In this document: positions 23,809-31,643 of the stretch, one piece after another
Layout: each line of letters opens with the position of its first letter
How positions within the stretch are numbered: the stretch's first letter is position 1
Assembly: GCF_004143485.2 (NCBI RefSeq)
Contig: NZ_RXOB02000032.1
Span: 1 to 64,000, forward strand
Length of the DNA: 64,000 nt
Reading direction: 5' to 3'
Source: Halorussus amylolyticus
GTDB lineage: Archaea; Halobacteriota; Halobacteria; Halobacteriales; Haladaptataceae
Made by a program: the position numbers and the translations under genes
Notes under the pieces: generated by a model
What the model saw: the letters and a program-made list of their open reading frames with translations, nothing else
Told to the model about the DNA's origin: nothing
The model's database searches: none

Positions 23809-24267
23809 TTAGTCAGCGCCCGCTGCGGTAGTGTCGCGGGCCTGGCTGCGACTGCGCCAGTAGCCCTGGAGGTACGCGCCGAGGAACATCCCGGCGAGCG
23901 CCCACAGGATGGTGACGTTGCCGATACCGAGGCTGGCGTAGGCGGCTCCGGGACAGATTCCGGAGAGCCCCCAGCCGACGCCGAAGATGGCTCCGCCGAA
24001 CAGGACGTTGCGGTCGAACGACTTGAGTCGTCGTCCGTACGCGTCGCCGGTCAGCGGCGCGCTGTCGCGCAACCGCGGCATGACCGCGAAGGCGATACCG
24101 CTGACGATAGCCGCGCCGAACATGACGAACAGCAGTCCGAAGTCCTCGAACTGGAGAAAGTCCAGCACGACCTCCGGACGAGCCATGTGGCTGAACGCGA
24201 GTCCGAACCCGAATATCAAGCCGCCGACGAAGATCAGCGGCATGAACGCGGGATGCCGGTCGCTCAT
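23809..24267 (-). CDS. YeeE/YedE family transporter subunit (DUF6691-type half)
   Basis: A 152-residue membrane protein with about four helices. It carries GLIFGFGLAFSHMARPEVVL and the family motif GVGWGLSGICPGAAYASLG with its conserved Cys. It corresponds to one half of bacterial YeeE/TsuA thiosulfate transporters. The start ATG at 24267 overlaps the stop of the other half-gene (ATGA), which fixes it. The two halves probably form one transporter. Confidence 0.87.
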   Translation of the reverse strand: MSDRHPAFMPLIFVGGLIFGFGLAFSHMARPEVVLDFLQFEDFGLLFVMFGAAIVSGIAFAVMPRLRDSAPLTGDAYGRRLKSFDRNVLFGGAIFGVGWGLSGICPGAAYASLGIGNVTILWALAGMFLGAYLQGYWRSRSQARDTTAAGAD

Positions 24268-24755
24268 GGACTCACCCCGAGTGCGGCGACCAATTGCGCG
24301 GTCACGATGGCGACCGCAAGGAACGTAATCACGCCGACGATGGACGTCTTCGAGGCCGACCCGACGCCGCAGACGCCGTGGCCCGACGTACAGCCCTTCC
24401 CGACGCGCGTCCCGATGCCCACTAAGACGCCGCCTACTAGGAGTCGCCACGGCTGAACGTCGGTCGTCCACGCGCCGCCCTGCCAGAAGGCGGCGTAGAC
24501 GGCCGCGCCGAGCACGATTCCCAGCGTGAACACGACGCGCCAGTCGCGCGAGGACACGTACTGCTGGAACCGCGACTGGTCGGAGACGTACGACAGCGTC
24601 GATTCGAGGAACGTGCTCGCGCCGGCGGCGATGCCGGTTCCGAGGTAGATGACGACCGCGCCGAGTCCGACGAGCAGGCCGCCGACGGCGTAGCGACTAA
24701 TCCCGTTCGGGAACAACTCGGCGGCGACCTGCAGCGGGAGTACGTCAATCACCAT
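24264..24755 (-). CDS. YeeE/YedE family transporter subunit
   Basis: A 163-residue membrane protein, the other half of a split YeeE/YedE transporter. The signature GTRVGKGCTSGHGVCGVGS holds two conserved Cys residues; in TsuA such cysteines pass thiosulfate through the membrane. It overlaps its partner by 4 nt and lies 8 nt after the rhodanese-MBL gene, so imported sulfur could be handed to that enzyme. Confidence 0.9.
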   Translation of the reverse strand: MVIDVLPLQVAAELFPNGISRYAVGGLLVGLGAVVIYLGTGIAAGASTFLESTLSYVSDQSRFQQYVSSRDWRVVFTLGIVLGAAVYAAFWQGGAWTTDVQPWRLLVGGVLVGIGTRVGKGCTSGHGVCGVGSASKTSIVGVITFLAVAIVTAQLVAALGVSP

Positions 24756-24763
24756 TGGCGTCG

Positions 24764-25957
24764 TTAGTCACCCGCGAGCGACTCCTGACTCGCGGCGCAG
24801 TTGTTCGGCCCGAGTTCGAGCGTGAACGCCTCGTCGTCGTCGACGGCGTTCTGACCGAGGTTCGTCGCGATGATGTCCTCGTAGTTGGCGGGCCGCGGCG
24901 GCATGTCCGAGAGGATCAGGTCGACGAAGTCGTCTTCGTCCATCGTCAACGCGTCCATCTGCTCGACGAGGTCGCCGACCGGTGCCGTGTAGGTGCCGTC
25001 GTCTGCGGGGACGGCGGCGTCGCTGAAGTGCGCCCCGCCGACGAGGGTGTCGTCGGGAAGCGTCAGCACGCGTTCCTGGAGCGACTCGTAAAGCATGCGC
25101 GCCGCGTCAGGCGCACCATCGTCACCTTCTTCGAGGTCGGGGCGAGCGACGCTCTCGATGAAGAGGCCGTCGCCGGTCGCGAGCAGGCTGTCGTCGATGA
25201 GATACGAGGTCATGCCTGTGGTGTGTCCGGGCGTGAACACCGTCTCGATGGTGGCGTCGCCGACCGCGAAGGTGTCGCCGTCGGCGGCTTGGGTGACTTC
25301 GTCGGCGTAGGTGACGCCGCGGTCGACGGCGGCCTCGGGGATGACGCCCTCGACGCCGCGCTCGTCGAGCGCGCGGACACCCGAGATGTGATCGGCGTGG
25401 ACGTGCGTGTCGATTGCGTACTTCAGGTCGACGCCCAGGTCGTCGGCGTCTTCGAGATACCGGTCGGTGAACGCTCGGAGCGGGTCGACGATGGCGGCTT
25501 CGCCGTCGTCGTAGACGAGGTACCCCAGGCATCCGCTGGACGGGCGCTGGTACTGGAGGAGCGTGCCCGCACCGTCGTAGTCGGTGACCTCGACCGCTTC
25601 GTAGATGCTCGCCCAGCCGTTCATGCCGTCTTCGAGGTGGTTGACGTCGTAGCCGCGTTCGGCGAGTTCGCCCGCGACGTATTCGCTGGCACCACCCTTC
25701 GCGCACAGGACGGTGACCTCGCGGTTGTCGGGAATCTGTGCGAGGACGTCCTGGTCGATGTCGTCGTCGAGGAATTCGAAGTACGGGGCGTTGATCGACG
25801 TGACGTTCTCGCCGTCGATGTGCCACTCTTCGTACTCGGATTGCATGCGTGCGTCGAGTAGCGTGATGTTCTCGCCGGCGTCGATTCGTCCTTTCAGTTC
25901 GTCCGGAGCGATCGTCTCGATCGGCACGTCCGGAGTCGGGAAGTCGTCTGCGTTCAT
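24764..25957 (-). CDS. Rhodanese-MBL fusion, persulfide dioxygenase-like
   Basis: A 397-residue cytoplasmic protein. Residues 12-125 are a rhodanese domain with active-site Cys85 (CAKGGAS). Residues 135-380 are a metallo-beta-lactamase domain with THVHADH (184-190), TPGHTTG and TGDGLFIESVARPDL. This matches the iron-binding set of ETHE1-type persulfide dioxygenases. A Cys143 in SSGCLGYLV begins the MBL part, and the C-terminus has LELGPNNCAA. It probably moves and oxidises persulfide sulfur (GSSH-like or protein-bound) to sulfite. First gene of the operon ending at 22618; a TATTGC site lies upstream. Confidence 0.9.
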   Translation of the reverse strand: MNADDFPTPDVPIETIAPDELKGRIDAGENITLLDARMQSEYEEWHIDGENVTSINAPYFEFLDDDIDQDVLAQIPDNREVTVLCAKGGASEYVAGELAERGYDVNHLEDGMNGWASIYEAVEVTDYDGAGTLLQYQRPSSGCLGYLVYDDGEAAIVDPLRAFTDRYLEDADDLGVDLKYAIDTHVHADHISGVRALDERGVEGVIPEAAVDRGVTYADEVTQAADGDTFAVGDATIETVFTPGHTTGMTSYLIDDSLLATGDGLFIESVARPDLEEGDDGAPDAARMLYESLQERVLTLPDDTLVGGAHFSDAAVPADDGTYTAPVGDLVEQMDALTMDEDDFVDLILSDMPPRPANYEDIIATNLGQNAVDDDEAFTLELGPNNCAASQESLAGD

Positions 25958-26194: not shown

Positions 26195-26440
26195 ATGAGT
26201 GCAGAATTCGACATTACGGAGACGCTAGACGTGAAAGGTGCATCGTGCCCAATGCCCGTCGTCAAGACGAAGAATGCCACCGACGACCTCGAATCCGGTG
26301 AGGTTCTCGAGGTGCTTTCGACGGACTCGGGCAGTATGAGTGATATCGACGGCTGGGCGTCCGGGACCGAGGGCGTCGAACTCCTCGACCAGGTCGAGGA
26401 CGGCGACGTGTACAAACACTACGTCCGCAAGACGGAGTAA
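26195..26440 (+). CDS. TusA-family sulfurtransferase
   Basis: An 81-residue TusA/SirA-like sulfur carrier. The family CPxP motif is intact (ASCPMPVVKT, Cys18), so a persulfide can form on Cys18. Sulfur-relay TusA proteins pass persulfide to partners such as DsrE. The gene is 8 nt before dsrE2, the common archaeal and bacterial arrangement in sulfur oxidation. Confidence 0.9.
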   Translation: MSAEFDITETLDVKGASCPMPVVKTKNATDDLESGEVLEVLSTDSGSMSDIDGWASGTEGVELLDQVEDGDVYKHYVRKTE

Positions 26441-26448
26441 CGATAACG

Positions 26449-27021
26449 ATGAGCACGGACACGCCCGATGTGACGGCTGACGACGCTCCCTCGCGCGCGG
26501 AACTCGCCGCACGAATCGAGGAACTCGAGGAGTCCCTCGCCGAGGCGACCGGCGAGGACGACACGAAGAAGATGAGCATCATCGCGACGAAGGGGACGCT
26601 TGACATGGCGTACCCGCCGCTGATCCTCGCCAGCACCGCCGCCGCGTTCGGCTACGAAGTAAATGTCTTCCACACGTTCTGGGGGTTGGACATCCTCCAC
26701 GAGGAGCGTTCGAAGAACCTCAAGCTGAGTTCCGTTGGGAATCCCAACATGCCGGTGCCAAACGCTGTCGCCGCGCTCCCTGGGATGGACCGCGTGACGA
26801 CGAAGATGATGGAGAAGAAGATCGCCGACAACGACACGGCGACCATCGAGGAACTCATCGAGATGAGCCTCGATATGGGCGTGGAGTTTCAGGCCTGCCA
26901 GATGACGATCGAGTTGATGGACTACGACGAGAACGACTTCTACGACGGCGTCACTACGGGCGTCGGCGCGGCTACCGCCCTGCAGGATATGGCCGACGCT
27001 GACATCCAACTCCTCGTCTAA
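26449..27021 (+). CDS. DsrE2-like (DsrE/DsrF/DrsH family) sulfur-carrier protein
   Basis: A 190-residue protein with a charged, probably coiled-coil N-terminus (15-40). A DsrE/F-like alpha-beta domain follows (IIATKGTLDMAYPPLILAS). A conserved Cys150 in EFQACQMT is the likely sulfur acceptor. In this family a nearby hydrophobic loop may contact the membrane. It forms an operon with tusA and probably exchanges persulfide with TusA. Confidence 0.9.
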   Translation: MSTDTPDVTADDAPSRAELAARIEELEESLAEATGEDDTKKMSIIATKGTLDMAYPPLILASTAAAFGYEVNVFHTFWGLDILHEERSKNLKLSSVGNPNMPVPNAVAALPGMDRVTTKMMEKKIADNDTATIEELIEMSLDMGVEFQACQMTIELMDYDENDFYDGVTTGVGAATALQDMADADIQLLV

Positions 27022-27079: not shown

Positions 27080-27493
27080 TCAACAGCTCTTGCAGTTCCG
27101 ACGCTGGTAATACAACAGTCCGGCGAAGAGGACGACGCTCACCGCGCCGAGCAGGGGTCGGAGCGGGTCGAAGTACGTCATGAGAGCGGACGAACTGAAG
27201 AGTGCGAGCAATACGGCGTTACAGATCGGACAGCCGAACGCCAGAAACCCGCCGACGACGCTCCCGGCCGCGAACCGATCCCCCACTGGCTTCTCTGCGA
27301 GGGAACGCTGGTAGACGAACGCCCCGGCGAACGCCGACGTCGCGACGAGAAACAGGTAGTCGGCCGGCGTACGGGGAACCATCCGGACGTAGACCGGGTT
27401 CGACAGGAGCCCGGTCACTGTTCCGAACAGCAGGAAGACGCCGACGGCGACGCCCACACTTCGGAGGCGTCGCGTGCGAGTCGGGGACATCAT
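27080..27493 (-). CDS. Small membrane protein with GCPxC motif
   Basis: A 137-residue protein with about four membrane helices. In the third predicted helix is FGCPICNAVLLALF, and the C-terminus ends YYQRRNCKSC. It is related to the neighbouring 27578-28126 protein: both have G(V/F)LA-x-GCxxC-x-A-x-x-LxAL. Two pairs of Cys suggest redox or metal chemistry at the membrane. Third gene of an operon after a DsbA-like protein. Family function unknown. A start one codon in (27490) is possible. Confidence 0.72.
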   Translation of the reverse strand: MMSPTRTRRLRSVGVAVGVFLLFGTVTGLLSNPVYVRMVPRTPADYLFLVATSAFAGAFVYQRSLAEKPVGDRFAAGSVVGGFLAFGCPICNAVLLALFSSSALMTYFDPLRPLLGAVSVVLFAGLLYYQRRNCKSC

Positions 27494-27577
27494 CCGCTTA
27501 CCGTAGTCCGACGGCCCTTAGTAGTGTTGAATCTTGTGGACTCTCTGCATGCACTTTCGAGTGACGACACACGGCCG

Positions 27578-28126
27578 TCATGGCCGGTTGTCGATTCCGC
27601 ACGTTCGCGGATCCCCGGCTCGCCCGAGGAAGAACGCCAGGAGGAGGATGCCGCCCAGCCGCAGGAGGTTCCCGTCGAACGGGAGCGCAGCCATCGCGCC
27701 GACGAAGCCGAGCGCCCCGAGGACGCCCGCACCGCAACTGGCACAGCCCGCGGCGAGCACCCCCGGCACGACGCCCGCGAGCGTCGACGCACTCGTGCGT
27801 CGCGCTCGCCGGACCAGCGCGGCGGCGTTGGTCACCGCGATTCCGGTCAGGAGCGCGTACGCCGTCACGAGGCCGACGCCGAGCCAGCCCGTGCTCAGGT
27901 ACGTCTCCCGCGTGAGGGCGGTGACGGCGTAGCCGATGTCGGTCGGTGACCTCGCGAGTACCTGCATCGAGAACTGCGGGAACGCGCTCAGCACGGTGAA
28001 GACGTAGGTCGCTCCAGTCACGAGACCGGCGACGGCCAGACGCCGGTTCGACGTGAGCGGGTAGGCGAGGGCGTCCCGGAGGTCTCGCGTCCAGTCGCGG
28101 GCCACGGTCGTTCGATTCCCGGTCAC
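27578..28126 (-). CDS. Membrane protein with GCxSC motif, paralog of downstream gene
   Basis: A 182-residue membrane protein with about five helices. Near residue 135 is LAAGCASCGAGVLGALGF, and a third Cys (RTCGI) is at the end. The GTG start at 28126 is set by a 4-nt overlap (GTGA) with the DsbA-like gene; longer frames upstream are antisense-like and Arg-rich. Operon order is DsbA-like, this protein, the GCPxC protein. Possibly a partner of the DsbA-like protein in thiol or metal handling. This is inference. Confidence 0.74.
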   Translation of the reverse strand: MTGNRTTVARDWTRDLRDALAYPLTSNRRLAVAGLVTGATYVFTVLSAFPQFSMQVLARSPTDIGYAVTALTRETYLSTGWLGVGLVTAYALLTGIAVTNAAALVRRARRTSASTLAGVVPGVLAAGCASCGAGVLGALGFVGAMAALPFDGNLLRLGGILLLAFFLGRAGDPRTCGIDNRP

Positions 28127-28860
28127 GACTGTAGCACCTGGTCGAGCGTGTCTGAGAAGGTGTCGTAGGGGTGTGCGCCGACGAGCCGGCCGGCCGTGTC
28201 GGTCTCTCGGTTGTACAGCACGAACCCCGGCGTCCCCCGGATGCCGGCCGAGGTCGCGGCGGTGGCGTCCACCTCGACGGCCTCGCGGACCCTGTCGCCC
28301 CGAGCGTCTCGACACTCGTTGACGTCGGCTGCAGTGACGCCCTCCACCGATTCGGTGACCGCTCTGAACGTCGCCTCGTCTGCCCAGACGTGGCCCTGCT
28401 CGGCTTGCGCGTCGAAGACCTCGCCGTGCCAGTTCCAGTACGCCGCCGGGTCGGCATCCGCGACCTGACGCCAGACGCATCGGTCCCAAACGGCTGCCGG
28501 CGTGGAGTACTCTCCGATGTTAGGGTACAGCAGCGTCACGAGTCTGGCCTCGCCGGTGTCCAGGTAGTTTCGTCCGACCTCCGGGAGCGCTCCCGTCTCG
28601 AACTCCTTGCAGAACGGGCAGAGGTAATCCGTCCAGTAGTAGACGTCCACGGGGGCGTCGCGCTCGCCGGCGATGGGACGACCGGCGAGTTCGACGCCGA
28701 AGCCGGTCGTCTCGTCGCTCCGGTGAAAGGTGGACGGCACGTACTCGCGTTCGCTCGACCCCGACCGCGACGCGACGTACGCGACGCTGCCGCCGAACGC
28801 GAGGGTCGCGCCGCCCGCGAGAAGCGCCCGCCGGCGCGTAATCGTGTCCTCTTCGTCCAT
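28123..28860 (-). CDS. DsbA-family thioredoxin-fold protein, exported
   Basis: A 245-residue exported protein. Signal: TRRRALLAGGATLAFGG (8-24), TAT-like. The thioredoxin fold starts near residue 70; the active site is CPFC (Cys81, Cys84) in YLCPFCKEF. An inserted helical domain has Cys residues at about 127 and 178. The cis-Pro loop is GTPGFVLYN. It resembles haloarchaeal DsbA/DSBA-like thioredoxins. First gene of an operon with two GCxxC membrane proteins. Confidence 0.88.
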   Translation of the reverse strand: MDEEDTITRRRALLAGGATLAFGGSVAYVASRSGSSEREYVPSTFHRSDETTGFGVELAGRPIAGERDAPVDVYYWTDYLCPFCKEFETGALPEVGRNYLDTGEARLVTLLYPNIGEYSTPAAVWDRCVWRQVADADPAAYWNWHGEVFDAQAEQGHVWADEATFRAVTESVEGVTAADVNECRDARGDRVREAVEVDATAATSAGIRGTPGFVLYNRETDTAGRLVGAHPYDTFSDTLDQVLQS

Positions 28861-29051: not shown

Positions 29052-30133
29052 ATGATCCCCGACGAAGTCGTAGCACGGCGCGACGGCGACCTGTTCGTCC
29101 TCGACGTTCGCAACGAGGACGACTTCGAGGAGTGGCGCGTAGTGGGCAGCTACAACGTCCCGATCTACGACCAGTTGCTCGACGATGACTTCACCGGTTT
29201 GAAGGACTCGCTGGACGAGATTCCCGAGGACGAGGAGACCGTCGTGGTGTGCGTCGCCGGCGTCACGTCGGTCGACGCTACCGAGTTCCTCCGCGAGCGA
29301 GGCTACGACGCCAAGTCGATGGAAGACGGTATGGACGGCTGGGGCCGCGTCCACGTCGCGTACGAGGTCGAGGACGCCGATGGCGTGGTCCAGATCGTCC
29401 GGCCCGGAACGGGGTGCGTCTCGTACCTCGTCCACGACGGCGGCAAGGGGGACCGTCGTCGACCCAAGCCTGTATCTCGACGAGTACCGCCCACTCGCCG
29501 CCGAGCGCGACGTCGAACTCGTCGGGGCGGTCGACACGCACGCCAATCCCGACCACGTCAGCGGCGGTCGCTCCTTCGCGGACGACCTCGACGCGCCGTA
29601 CTACCCCAATCCGGCTGACGGCAGCGAACTCGACAAGTACGACCCGCTCGAAGACGGCGACAGCGTCGCGGTCGGCGCCCGCGACCTGGAAGTGCGCCAC
29701 ACGCCGGGTCAAACTCCCGGAAGCGTCTCGCTGGAGTGGGGCGACGCCCTGCTCTCGGGCGACACGCTGTTCATCGACAGCGTCGGGCGGCCCGACCTCG
29801 AAGGGAACGACGAGATGGACGTGCGCGAGGCGGCCGAGGAATTGTTCGACAGCCTCGCCGAACTCGGTGACTTCCCCGAGAGACGGTCGTCCACCCCGGC
29901 CACTTCTCCGCCGAGGACCTGCGGCCGCTCTCGACGTCGCTCGGGCGGGTCGAGGAGACCAACGAGCTGTTCGGGATGGCAGACTGCGAGGCGTTCGTCG
30001 ACACCATCGTCGAGAGCCTCTCGGACGAACCGGCCAACTACAACCAGATCAAGGCCATCAACTGGGGAAAGGAACCGCTGACGGGCGACGTCACGGACCT
30101 CGAACTCGGCCTAACAACTGCGCCGCGAACTAA
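29052..30133 (+). pseudogene. Rhodanese-MBL fusion with three frameshifts
   Basis: A third-type copy of the persulfide dioxygenase-like family. The first frame gives a rhodanese domain with Cys67 (VVCVAGVTS) and RPGTGCVSYLV. Three single-base indels break it: an extra G in the run at 29447-29451, a lost base near 29878-29882 in CCGAGAGACG, and a lost C near 30108-30111. Correcting these gives THANPDH (the metal motif has Asn in place of the second His), GDTLFIDSVGRPDLEGN, VHPGHFSAED and a final LELGPNNCAAN. Either a recent pseudogene or assembly errors in homopolymers. The intact length would be about 360 residues. Confidence 0.82.
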
Positions 30134-30287
30134 CTGCTGATCTCTAAAGCAATATTTTGCTGTTCTAAGGATATACGAAATTACTTCTGTAAATCATGGA
30201 AGCGACGCAGGAAGCGGACTCATCGGCGTCCAGAGACGTGTGAGCAGTCGGTCGACCGTGGCCTCGATCCACTCGAACCGCGGGAGA

Positions 30288-31643
30288 TTATTTCCCGTCG
30301 TCCAGCCGTCCGCCGAGTACCTTCGCTGCGGTTAAAATGGGGTCCCAGACGGGGCTGAACGGCGGCGCGTACGCGAGGTCGAGATTCTGGAGGTCCTCGA
30401 CGGTGAGTCCGGCGTGGAGCGCGGTGGCGACGGTGTCGATGCGCTTGGCTCCCTCTCGACCCACGACGCTCGCACCCAGCACTCGCCCCGTGTCACGGTC
30501 CGCCACGAGGTGGACGGTCAGTTCCTCGGAGCCAGGGTAGTAGTTGGCCCGCGATTCGTCCGTGATTGTGACCGAGACCGGGTCGAAACCGGCCTCGCGG
30601 GCGGCCGACTCGTCGAGGACCCCGGTTCGGGCCGCGCCGAGGTCGAACGCCTTGACGATGGCGGTTCCGGCGGTTCCGCCGACCTCGGTCGGCTCGCCCG
30701 CGACGGTCTGGCCGATGGCGCGACCTGAACGGTTGGCCGTGAGCGCGAGTGGAACGTGGTCCGGTTCACCGGTGACGACGTTGGTAGCTTCCGCGCAGTC
30801 GCCGGCCGCGTAGACGTCGGGCGCGGTCGTCCGGCCGTGCTCGTCGGTGGCGACAGCCCCGGTCGGTCCGAGTTCGATGCCCGTGTCGGCCGCCAGTTCA
30901 GCGTTCGGCTCGACGCCGACCCCGACGATGGCGAGGTCTGCGGACACGCCCTCGTCGTCGAGGTCGACGGCCTCGATCCGGCCGCTCCCCGCGAATCCTT
31001 CGACCGCGGTCTCCAACCGGACGTCTACGTCCTGCTCGCGGAGGTGCTCCTCGACCGCTTCTCCGACCACGCTACCGAACGGCTGGAGGACGTGGGGTAA
31101 CATCTCGAAGAGGGTGACGGACAGCCCGCGTCCCGACAACGCCTCCGCCATCTCGACGCCGACGTAGCCACCACCCACGACGGCGGCGGTCTCGGGGTCG
31201 TGCCGGTCGAGGAATTGGTCGATAGCGTCCGCCTCGTCCATGTCGTGGATGGTGAACACGCCGTCGAGGTCCATCCCGTCGAACGGCGGCCGGATGGCGC
31301 TCGCCCCGGTCGCGATCAGGAGGTGATCGTAGGGCTGTTCGAAGCGCTCGTCGTCGGCCGAGACCGTGACGGTCTTCGCGTCGGTATCGACCGCGACGAC
31401 TTCGTGGCGCGTCCGGAGGTCGACGTCGCGCCCTTGGACGAACTCCTCGGGCGTCACGGACACGAGGTCGTCGAGTTCCGCGACGTCGCCCTTGACGTAG
31501 TAAGGCATCCCACAGGCTGCGTAGGACACCCACTCGCCCTTCTCGAAGACGACGACGTCCAGTTCCGGACTTTCGCGTTTTGCCTTGCTTGCAGCGCTCA
31601 TACCGGCCGCGTCTCCGCCGACGATGACGAACGTCTCTCCCAT
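30288..31643 (-). CDS. CoA-disulfide reductase / FAD-dependent pyridine-nucleotide oxidoreductase
   Basis: A 451-residue flavoprotein. N-terminal FAD site (VIVGGDAAGMSAASKAKR), catalytic Cys44 in SYAACGMPYY, NAD(P)H site (VVGGGYVGVEMAEAL), FAD-ribityl motif (VYAAGDCAE), and a C-terminal dimerisation domain ending near YAPPFSPVWDP. This matches CoA-disulfide reductases and CoA-dependent NADH:sulfur or persulfide reductases. In this region it could reduce CoA persulfide or CoA disulfide and so release sulfide. It has no rhodanese tail, unlike some bacterial forms. Confidence 0.9.
   Translation of the reverse strand: MGETFVIVGGDAAGMSAASKAKRESPELDVVVFEKGEWVSYAACGMPYYVKGDVAELDDLVSVTPEEFVQGRDVDLRTRHEVVAVDTDAKTVTVSADDERFEQPYDHLLIATGASAIRPPFDGMDLDGVFTIHDMDEADAIDQFLDRHDPETAAVVGGGYVGVEMAEALSGRGLSVTLFEMLPHVLQPFGSVVGEAVEEHLREQDVDVRLETAVEGFAGSGRIEAVDLDDEGVSADLAIVGVGVEPNAELAADTGIELGPTGAVATDEHGRTTAPDVYAAGDCAEATNVVTGEPDHVPLALTANRSGRAIGQTVAGEPTEVGGTAGTAIVKAFDLGAARTGVLDESAAREAGFDPVSVTITDESRANYYPGSEELTVHLVADRDTGRVLGASVVGREGAKRIDTVATALHAGLTVEDLQNLDLAYAPPFSPVWDPILTAAKVLGGRLDDGK

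Follow-up and report, generated by a model that had tools for sequence, protein, structure and literature searches.

A putatively exported DsbA-like protein and two paralogous GCxxC membrane proteins in a haloarchaeal sulfur island: a possible transmembrane cysteine relay

Halorussus amylolyticus carries a gene for a DsbA-like protein next to genes for two small membrane proteins, here called MemA and MemB, and the question raised by this locus is which membrane partner serves the DsbA-like protein and what might pass between them. In the 3.78 Mb haloarchaeal genome that contains the stretch of 64,000 nucleotides analysed (the window), no match was found to DsbB (PF02600), a profile that exceeded its cut-off in 6 of 14 control genomes, or to VKOR (PF07884), which does match in 82 of 391 genomes of the class. 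The DsbD_TM profile gave no match in this genome and also missed haloarchaeal CcdA-like proteins; the CcdA profile came back empty in a search run without a positive control, and MerT was not matched. The only other Thioredoxin_4 match, presumably a FrnE-type protein, has no evident signal, and the DsbA-like protein was the only putatively exported one found.

The operon and its sulfur island

The genes and motifs of the operon, in window positions, are as follows.

28123 to 28860, minus strand: DsbA-like thioredoxin-fold protein, 245 residues, putatively exported (Thioredoxin_4 8.4e-15, DSBA 1.3e-8, best PDB match BdbD)
28609 to 28620, minus strand: CPFC active-site codons of the DsbA-like protein, read from the translation (CPFC in 76 of 81 DsbA genes scored beside close-family MemA)
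27578 to 28126, minus strand: MemA, membrane protein of 182 residues, GTG start, four membrane segments judged by eye (family alignment; no Pfam or NCBIfam family)
27734 to 27745, minus strand: putative intramembrane CASC (GCASCG) of MemA (Cys columns kept in 33 of 34 sequences)
27080 to 27493, minus strand: MemB, membrane protein of 137 residues, four membrane segments judged by eye (alignments; no family over threshold)
27221 to 27232, minus strand: putative intramembrane CPIC (GCPICN) of MemB (C88, P89, C91 and N92 invariant in archaeal and bacterial rows)
27083 to 27094, minus strand: C-terminal CKSC of MemB (Cys at both columns in 55 of 57 sequences; CxxC tail in 98 of 123 loci)

A sequence-only reading had proposed one operon of overlapping genes coding for an exported CPFC thioredoxin protein and two membrane proteins. 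The description of the first protein as a CPFC thioredoxin protein was borne out, since it exceeds the Pfam gathering scores of both Thioredoxin_4 (55.8 against 23.2 bits) and DSBA (35.3 against 25.6 bits), and BdbD is the closest solved structure in a PDB search by sequence (1.6e-15). Export was judged by eye from the translation, in which the N-terminus is arginine-rich (RRR) and resembles a Tat signal. No HMA metal-binding domain was found in a Pfam scan of the protein. The overlap holds for the DsbA-like stop and the MemA start, which share 4 nt, but not for MemA and MemB, which are separated by 84 bp.

Genes with a likely role in sulfur metabolism surround the operon and span 33 kb of the window (20225 to 53217).

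26195 to 26440, plus strand: TusA sulfurtransferase (TusA 2.9e-20)
26449 to 27021, plus strand: DsrE2 sulfur carrier (DrsE_2 2.2e-52)
24764 to 25957, minus strand: rhodanese-MBL fusion, perhaps with a persulfide-dioxygenase-like role (Lactamase_B and Rhodanese over cut-off)
23809 to 24755, minus strand: two YeeE/SoxT-like half transporters (Sulf_transp, DUF6691)
30288 to 31643, minus strand: CoA-disulfide reductase-like flavoprotein (TIGR03385 5.7e-138, below the equivalog cut-off)

Between 20 and 53 kb there are also a TauE, a CysP/PHO4-like permease, a DsrE and a DUF302 gene, as well as three intact rhodanese-MBL genes and a broken one (29052 to 30137, plus strand), which is split over three reading frames and is either a pseudogene or an assembly error. 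An Arthrobacter plasmid has a matching set of MFS, rhodanese-MBL, TauE, DsrE and DUF302 next to its MemB. Among the subset of window genes scanned there was neither a metal ATPase nor a MerA. The window resembles two loci of Halorussus litoreus (L003 and L049) in both DNA sequence and synteny. At the same sulfur-island site (L049:5800-6090, L060) H. litoreus has a decayed DsbA-MemA-MemB remnant, in which two internal deletions have joined the beginning of DsbA to the third membrane segment of MemA, and that segment to the end of MemB, and it keeps a full-length copy elsewhere in its genome (L003).

Such neighbours (TusA, DsrE2, rhodanese-MBL, the YeeE pair and TauE) raise the idea that the cargo is sulfur, the DsbA-like protein accepting sulfane sulfur outside the cell (from polysulfide, thiosulfate or a persulfidated protein) and the cysteines of MemA and MemB passing it to TusA, DsrE2 or rhodanese in the manner of MerP and MerT. 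In Hyphomicrobium denitrificans sulfur import by a DsbA together with the YeeE-like SoxT1A was described, in a model where DsbA frees sulfane sulfur for import, and there too a DsbA-like gene lies beside a YeeE-type transporter and sulfurtransferases (PMC11582611). That model is the closest printed idea to a sulfane-sulfur relay, and the portion of the account available to us makes no mention of MemA or MemB (PMC11582611). Against such a relay, the adjoining YeeE pair already represents a sulfur import route. We judge it rather unlikely, and further evidence bearing on it is given below.

Two related membrane protein families

Both membrane proteins have cysteines at their C-termini, as had been read from the sequence: MemA combines its GCASC with a single Cys close to the C-terminus, and MemB its GCPIC with the terminal CKSC. 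These residues are conserved across the families. GCxxC and the C-terminal Cys are kept in 33 of 34 MemA sequences, CPxCN in 122 of 123 MemB loci, and the four residues C88 to N92 listed above in every row of a mixed archaeal and bacterial alignment (n=20). The motif G-x-LA-x-GCxxC-x-A-x-x-L is common to the two proteins; the final "x-AL" that had been added to it fits MemA, but MemB is one residue shorter there. The charge pattern suggests that both ends of MemA face inwards, and the same, more weakly, for MemB, which would place GCxxC within the third membrane segment and the C-terminal Cys of MemA in the cytoplasm.

When wide profiles of the families (137 MemB and 104 MemA rows) were compared, they aligned over 132 columns with an E value of 1.4e-8 and a probability of 95.5%, while narrow profiles gave 5e-5. 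Unrelated membrane controls (TauE, DUF7521, CcdA and three haloarchaeal clusters) did not exceed 4.2%, and the pairing of two CcdA-like families reached 97%. The proposal that MemA and MemB are ancient duplicates is therefore supported by sequence comparison. Kinship of either with CcdA was not supported, as hhalign probabilities against haloarchaeal CcdA-like families were at most 1.1%.

No described family was found over cut-off for MemA or MemB in Pfam and NCBIfam, the HMM search that had been set beforehand as a test, and Pfam gave no match to DsbB, VKOR or CcdA/DsbD_TM (PF02683, PF13386), in agreement with the earlier claim that such motifs are lacking. A PDB sequence search returned no credible match, and the open-access literature, as far as it could be searched, yielded no characterised MemA or MemB. 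AlphaFold2 models reached a mean pLDDT of 67.4 for MemB and 70.5 for MemA and were weakest around the GCxxC helix, and for that reason they were kept out of our claims; Foldseek of these low-confidence models against the PDB returned nothing at E <= 0.001.

Among outside families, a weak signal came from MerT, which has a vicinal CC in its first membrane helix, as was also seen in all three MerT sequences fetched. A comparison of MemB with a profile of these three rows gave a probability of 58% (E 9.6e-5); here the C-terminal pair of membrane segments of MemB, together with its Cys tail, aligns with the first two segments and Cys loop of MerT. MerT was also the NCBIfam model that matched the largest number of MemB rows (3 of 20, best 9.5e-5), and Pfam MerT matched 2 of 20 (best E 0.005). 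All of these scores are far below the curated cut-offs; for the Pseudonocardia MemB they were 22.5 bits against 150 (NCBIfam) and 15.5 against 32.9 (Pfam). The MemB of the window had no MerT match in either collection, and the profile comparison of MemA with MerT gave no signal. Unlike MerT, MemB has CPxC in place of the vicinal CC, additional N-terminal membrane segments and no MerP. The likeness is thus a weak lead; it lends something to a sulfane-sulfur relay, and its absence from MemA counts against one.

Distribution and gene linkage

In genome contigs MemB was found at 48 loci, all labelled haloarchaea, and in 10 of 28 genomes of the family. Across the haloarchaeal class, MemB-type proteins occur in 116 of the 391 genomes and 48 of the 86 genera sampled. 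MemA was matched in 130 of the 391 genomes at E 0.001, and 104 of these fall below 1e-20, a threshold of our own that defines the close family. Among the weaker matches, seven were inspected and form a distant subfamily. In raw genome counts that ignore kinship, MemA is present in 85 of 94 genomes with tailed MemB (the form with a C-terminal CxxC) against 19 of 297 others.

For linkage, 123 MemB loci were taken from the class-wide matches, leaving out the window itself and partial or fragment matches, together with 6 kb of flanking sequence to either side, or less near contig ends, and were scanned with profiles of the neighbouring gene clusters. The CxxC tail is present in 98 and absent in 25, locus L208 being scored as tailless despite two tail cysteines at another spacing. 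MemA lies within 2 kb of tailed MemB at 78 of the 98 loci and upstream on its strand at 64, and both MemA and DsbA lie within 6 kb at 75. Any of DsbA, TlpA or Sco was found within 6 kb at 87 loci, with no such match at 11, and Sco, TlpA and CcdA occur together at 20 within the same distance. A thioredoxin gene was found within 6 kb of 48 of the 98 tailed MemB against 0 of the 25 tailless. The tailless loci were likewise never near MemA, DsbA, TlpA, Sco or CcdA and had a sulfur marker in 4 cases; they represent a separate subfamily and hence are not an independent control. The tailless MemB (L209 to L228 and others), most of them with CPHCN, have no thioredoxin-fold neighbours, and many have an additional Cys (CAYGG) directly ahead of the third membrane segment.

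Near 57 of the 98 tailed MemB (e.g. L003:6455-6721) a further gene codes for a small protein of two membrane segments that has an invariant CC and one Cys at the C-terminus, a cysteine pattern like that of MerF. The protein had no family match over cut-off, and the profile comparison was too weak (25 to 26%) to accept it as kin of MemB or MerT.

Seen from MemA, a DsbA gene lies within 1.5 kb of 77 of 93 long MemA matches and within 4 kb of 87, the latter count including several loci with another gene in between, and the expected linkage with DsbA in other genomes is thus conserved. Beside close-family MemA (n=81) DsbA is upstream on the same strand in 46 cases and divergent in 35, with no other arrangement. 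Of 41 co-directional cases, 12 have a thioredoxin gene upstream of DsbA at a distance below 1 kb; one locus enters this count twice. At distant-MemA loci (L229 to L235) a DsbA match adjoins MemA in 6 of 7, with CPRC, CHNC, CTNC or CTRC as its motif. These distant proteins have GCAACG, a GCPV tail and a lipoprotein-like DsbA as partner, and the subfamily seems to be a DsbA partner of wider occurrence among haloarchaea. MemA-DsbA pairs without MemB were seen at L236 to L243, and solitary copies of MemB also exist. The suggestion of an uncharacterised module consequently stands for MemA with DsbA, while MemB is more loosely attached, being found also beside Sco-TlpA-CcdA, in bacteria beside CcdA, or on its own.

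Since MemA is tied to a DsbA with a CPFC site in a genome where neither DsbB nor VKOR was matched, it might act like these small four-segment partners of a DsbA, which have Cys pairs of their own, oxidising the DsbA-like protein and sending electrons inwards or to quinone so that exported proteins gain disulfides. MemA differs from DsbB and VKOR in having GCxxC in what would be the third membrane segment and a Cys tail that the charge pattern puts in the cytoplasm, and matches neither family. MemA and VKOR occur together in 27 genomes, against 21.8 expected (p 0.16), and VKOR shows no anticorrelation to MemA; MemA is therefore no simple VKOR replacement. Close-family MemA in just 104 of 391 genomes is also few for a housekeeping oxidase, and the exchange with CcdA and the sulfur and metal islands described below suit reduction better. 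An oxidative pair is accordingly judged improbable.

The partnership with DsbA recurs in many other archaea and partly in bacteria. In the plasmid collection MemA was confined to haloarchaeal plasmids (28 records), and MemB was found on plasmids of Rhodococcus, Arthrobacter, Streptomyces, Mycolicibacterium, Rubrobacter, Thermomicrobium, Azospirillum, Tabrizicola and others, their hosts including Actinobacteria and Alphaproteobacteria. Bacterial contexts were read from 21 annotated stretches that were hand-picked and not random (a 22nd had no annotation). Of the 21, 12 include a thioredoxin-fold gene and 9 show none; CcdA or DsbD, sulfur genes (rhodanese, MBL, DsrE, TauE, YeeE) and P-type ATPases are each present in 8. 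On three actinobacterial plasmids (Pseudonocardia, A. crystallopoietes and Arthrobacter D5-1) DsbA, CcdA and MemB form a tight operon of touching or overlapping genes, in which the slot of MemA is filled by CcdA. On an Azospirillum plasmid the order is a DsbD-domain gene, DsbA overlapping MemB, DUF2892, a sulfurtransferase, MBL, TauE and two YeeE, mirroring the sulfur set of the window. Arthrobacter plasmid pA58H2 was described as having a "CYT" module beside a "SUL" module; the former, which adjoins the sulfur module, contains a MemB homologue (our locus L091), and two CcdA proteins were counted in it in the part of the report available to us (PMC6305408). By position, one of those two would be MemB, though MemB could not be related to CcdA.

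The P-type ATPases, the Sco-TlpA-CcdA sets beside MemB at 20 of 98 archaeal loci, a Gemmobacter DsbA that has a ScsC_N domain and lies about 3 kb away from MemB, and the MerT-like signal might together speak for a soft-metal module. The three proteins would then import, export or insert Cu(I) or Hg(II), in the way of Sco/TlpA/CcdA or MerP/MerT. We regard this as quite improbable, for neither a metal ATPase nor MerA turned up among the scanned window genes, the DsbA-like protein lacks an HMA domain and carries CPFC, and the MerT scores are far below cut-off.

A relay of electrons or of sulfur

MemA and MemB probably carry electrons, or sulfur, through the membrane to the putatively exported DsbA-like protein. 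We give a probability of about 0.5 to the reading that the three proteins form a transmembrane cysteine relay, most likely a reductive one, with MemA as the dedicated partner and MemB as a second subunit. Cytosolic thioredoxin would reduce the C-terminal cysteines, and electrons would move from these to the intramembrane CxxC and on to CPFC in the DsbA-like protein, whose place of action would be outside the cell membrane. MemA would be its dedicated redox partner, and MemB, with GCPxC and a C-terminal CxxC, might also serve CcdA-type partners. The reduced DsbA-like protein could then keep extracytoplasmic thiols reduced, remove persulfides and polysulfides, or serve metal-stressed proteins.

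We infer the direction of the relay from gene context, as an outward flow of electrons is favoured by thioredoxin upstream of DsbA, CcdA in the slot of MemA and the Sco-TlpA-CcdA context. Of the thiol or metal relay first suggested, it is the reducing power that is favoured by the co-location with CcdA and cytosolic thioredoxin; cargo and direction stay a matter of inference. Like CcdA, DsbD and ScsB (in CcdA-TlpA and ScsB-ScsC), MemA and MemB have membrane cysteines beside an exported thioredoxin-fold gene, but no sequence relation to CcdA was found and they are shorter, with one GCxxC plus C-terminal Cys. They are best read as CcdA-like in role and not in sequence, and as carriers of reducing power to the outside, encoded in islands for sulfane-sulfur or metal stress. 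Several points weigh against a reductive relay: CPFC is also known from oxidising DsbA-type proteins, tailed MemB has no partner at 11 of 98 loci, MemA-DsbA pairs exist without MemB, 9 of the 21 bacterial stretches have no thioredoxin-fold gene, and VKOR is not anticorrelated with MemA.

As for sulfane sulfur as cargo, a sulfur marker (rhodanese-MBL, TusA, DsrE2 or CoA-disulfide-reductase-like) lies within 6 kb of tailed MemB at 46 of 98 loci, a set similar to that of the window lies beside the Azospirillum MemB, and rhodanese, MBL, DsrE or TauE accompany MemB in Arthrobacter, Rhodococcus, Streptomyces and Microbacterium. None of the four markers was found within that distance at the other 52 loci, however, and the Sco-TlpA-CcdA and CcdA operons indicate electrons. 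It is rather unlikely, if conceivable, that MemA and MemB represent a further architecture for transmembrane thiol chemistry, with a MerT-like GCxxC hairpin as its basis and no relation to DsbD/CcdA or DsbB/VKOR, which in sulfur islands moves sulfane sulfur or persulfide, an outer DsbA-like protein feeding inner TusA or DsrE.

If the reductive relay is correct, it would supply exported DsbA-like proteins with the membrane partner so far missing in those haloarchaea that have no DsbB, VKOR or CcdA match, and would add one more protein family to the few known routes by which reducing power (or sulfur) crosses membranes. MemB-type genes on bacterial plasmids adjoin genes for persulfide and metal stress, and the exchange of MemA for CcdA yields a clear, testable prediction.
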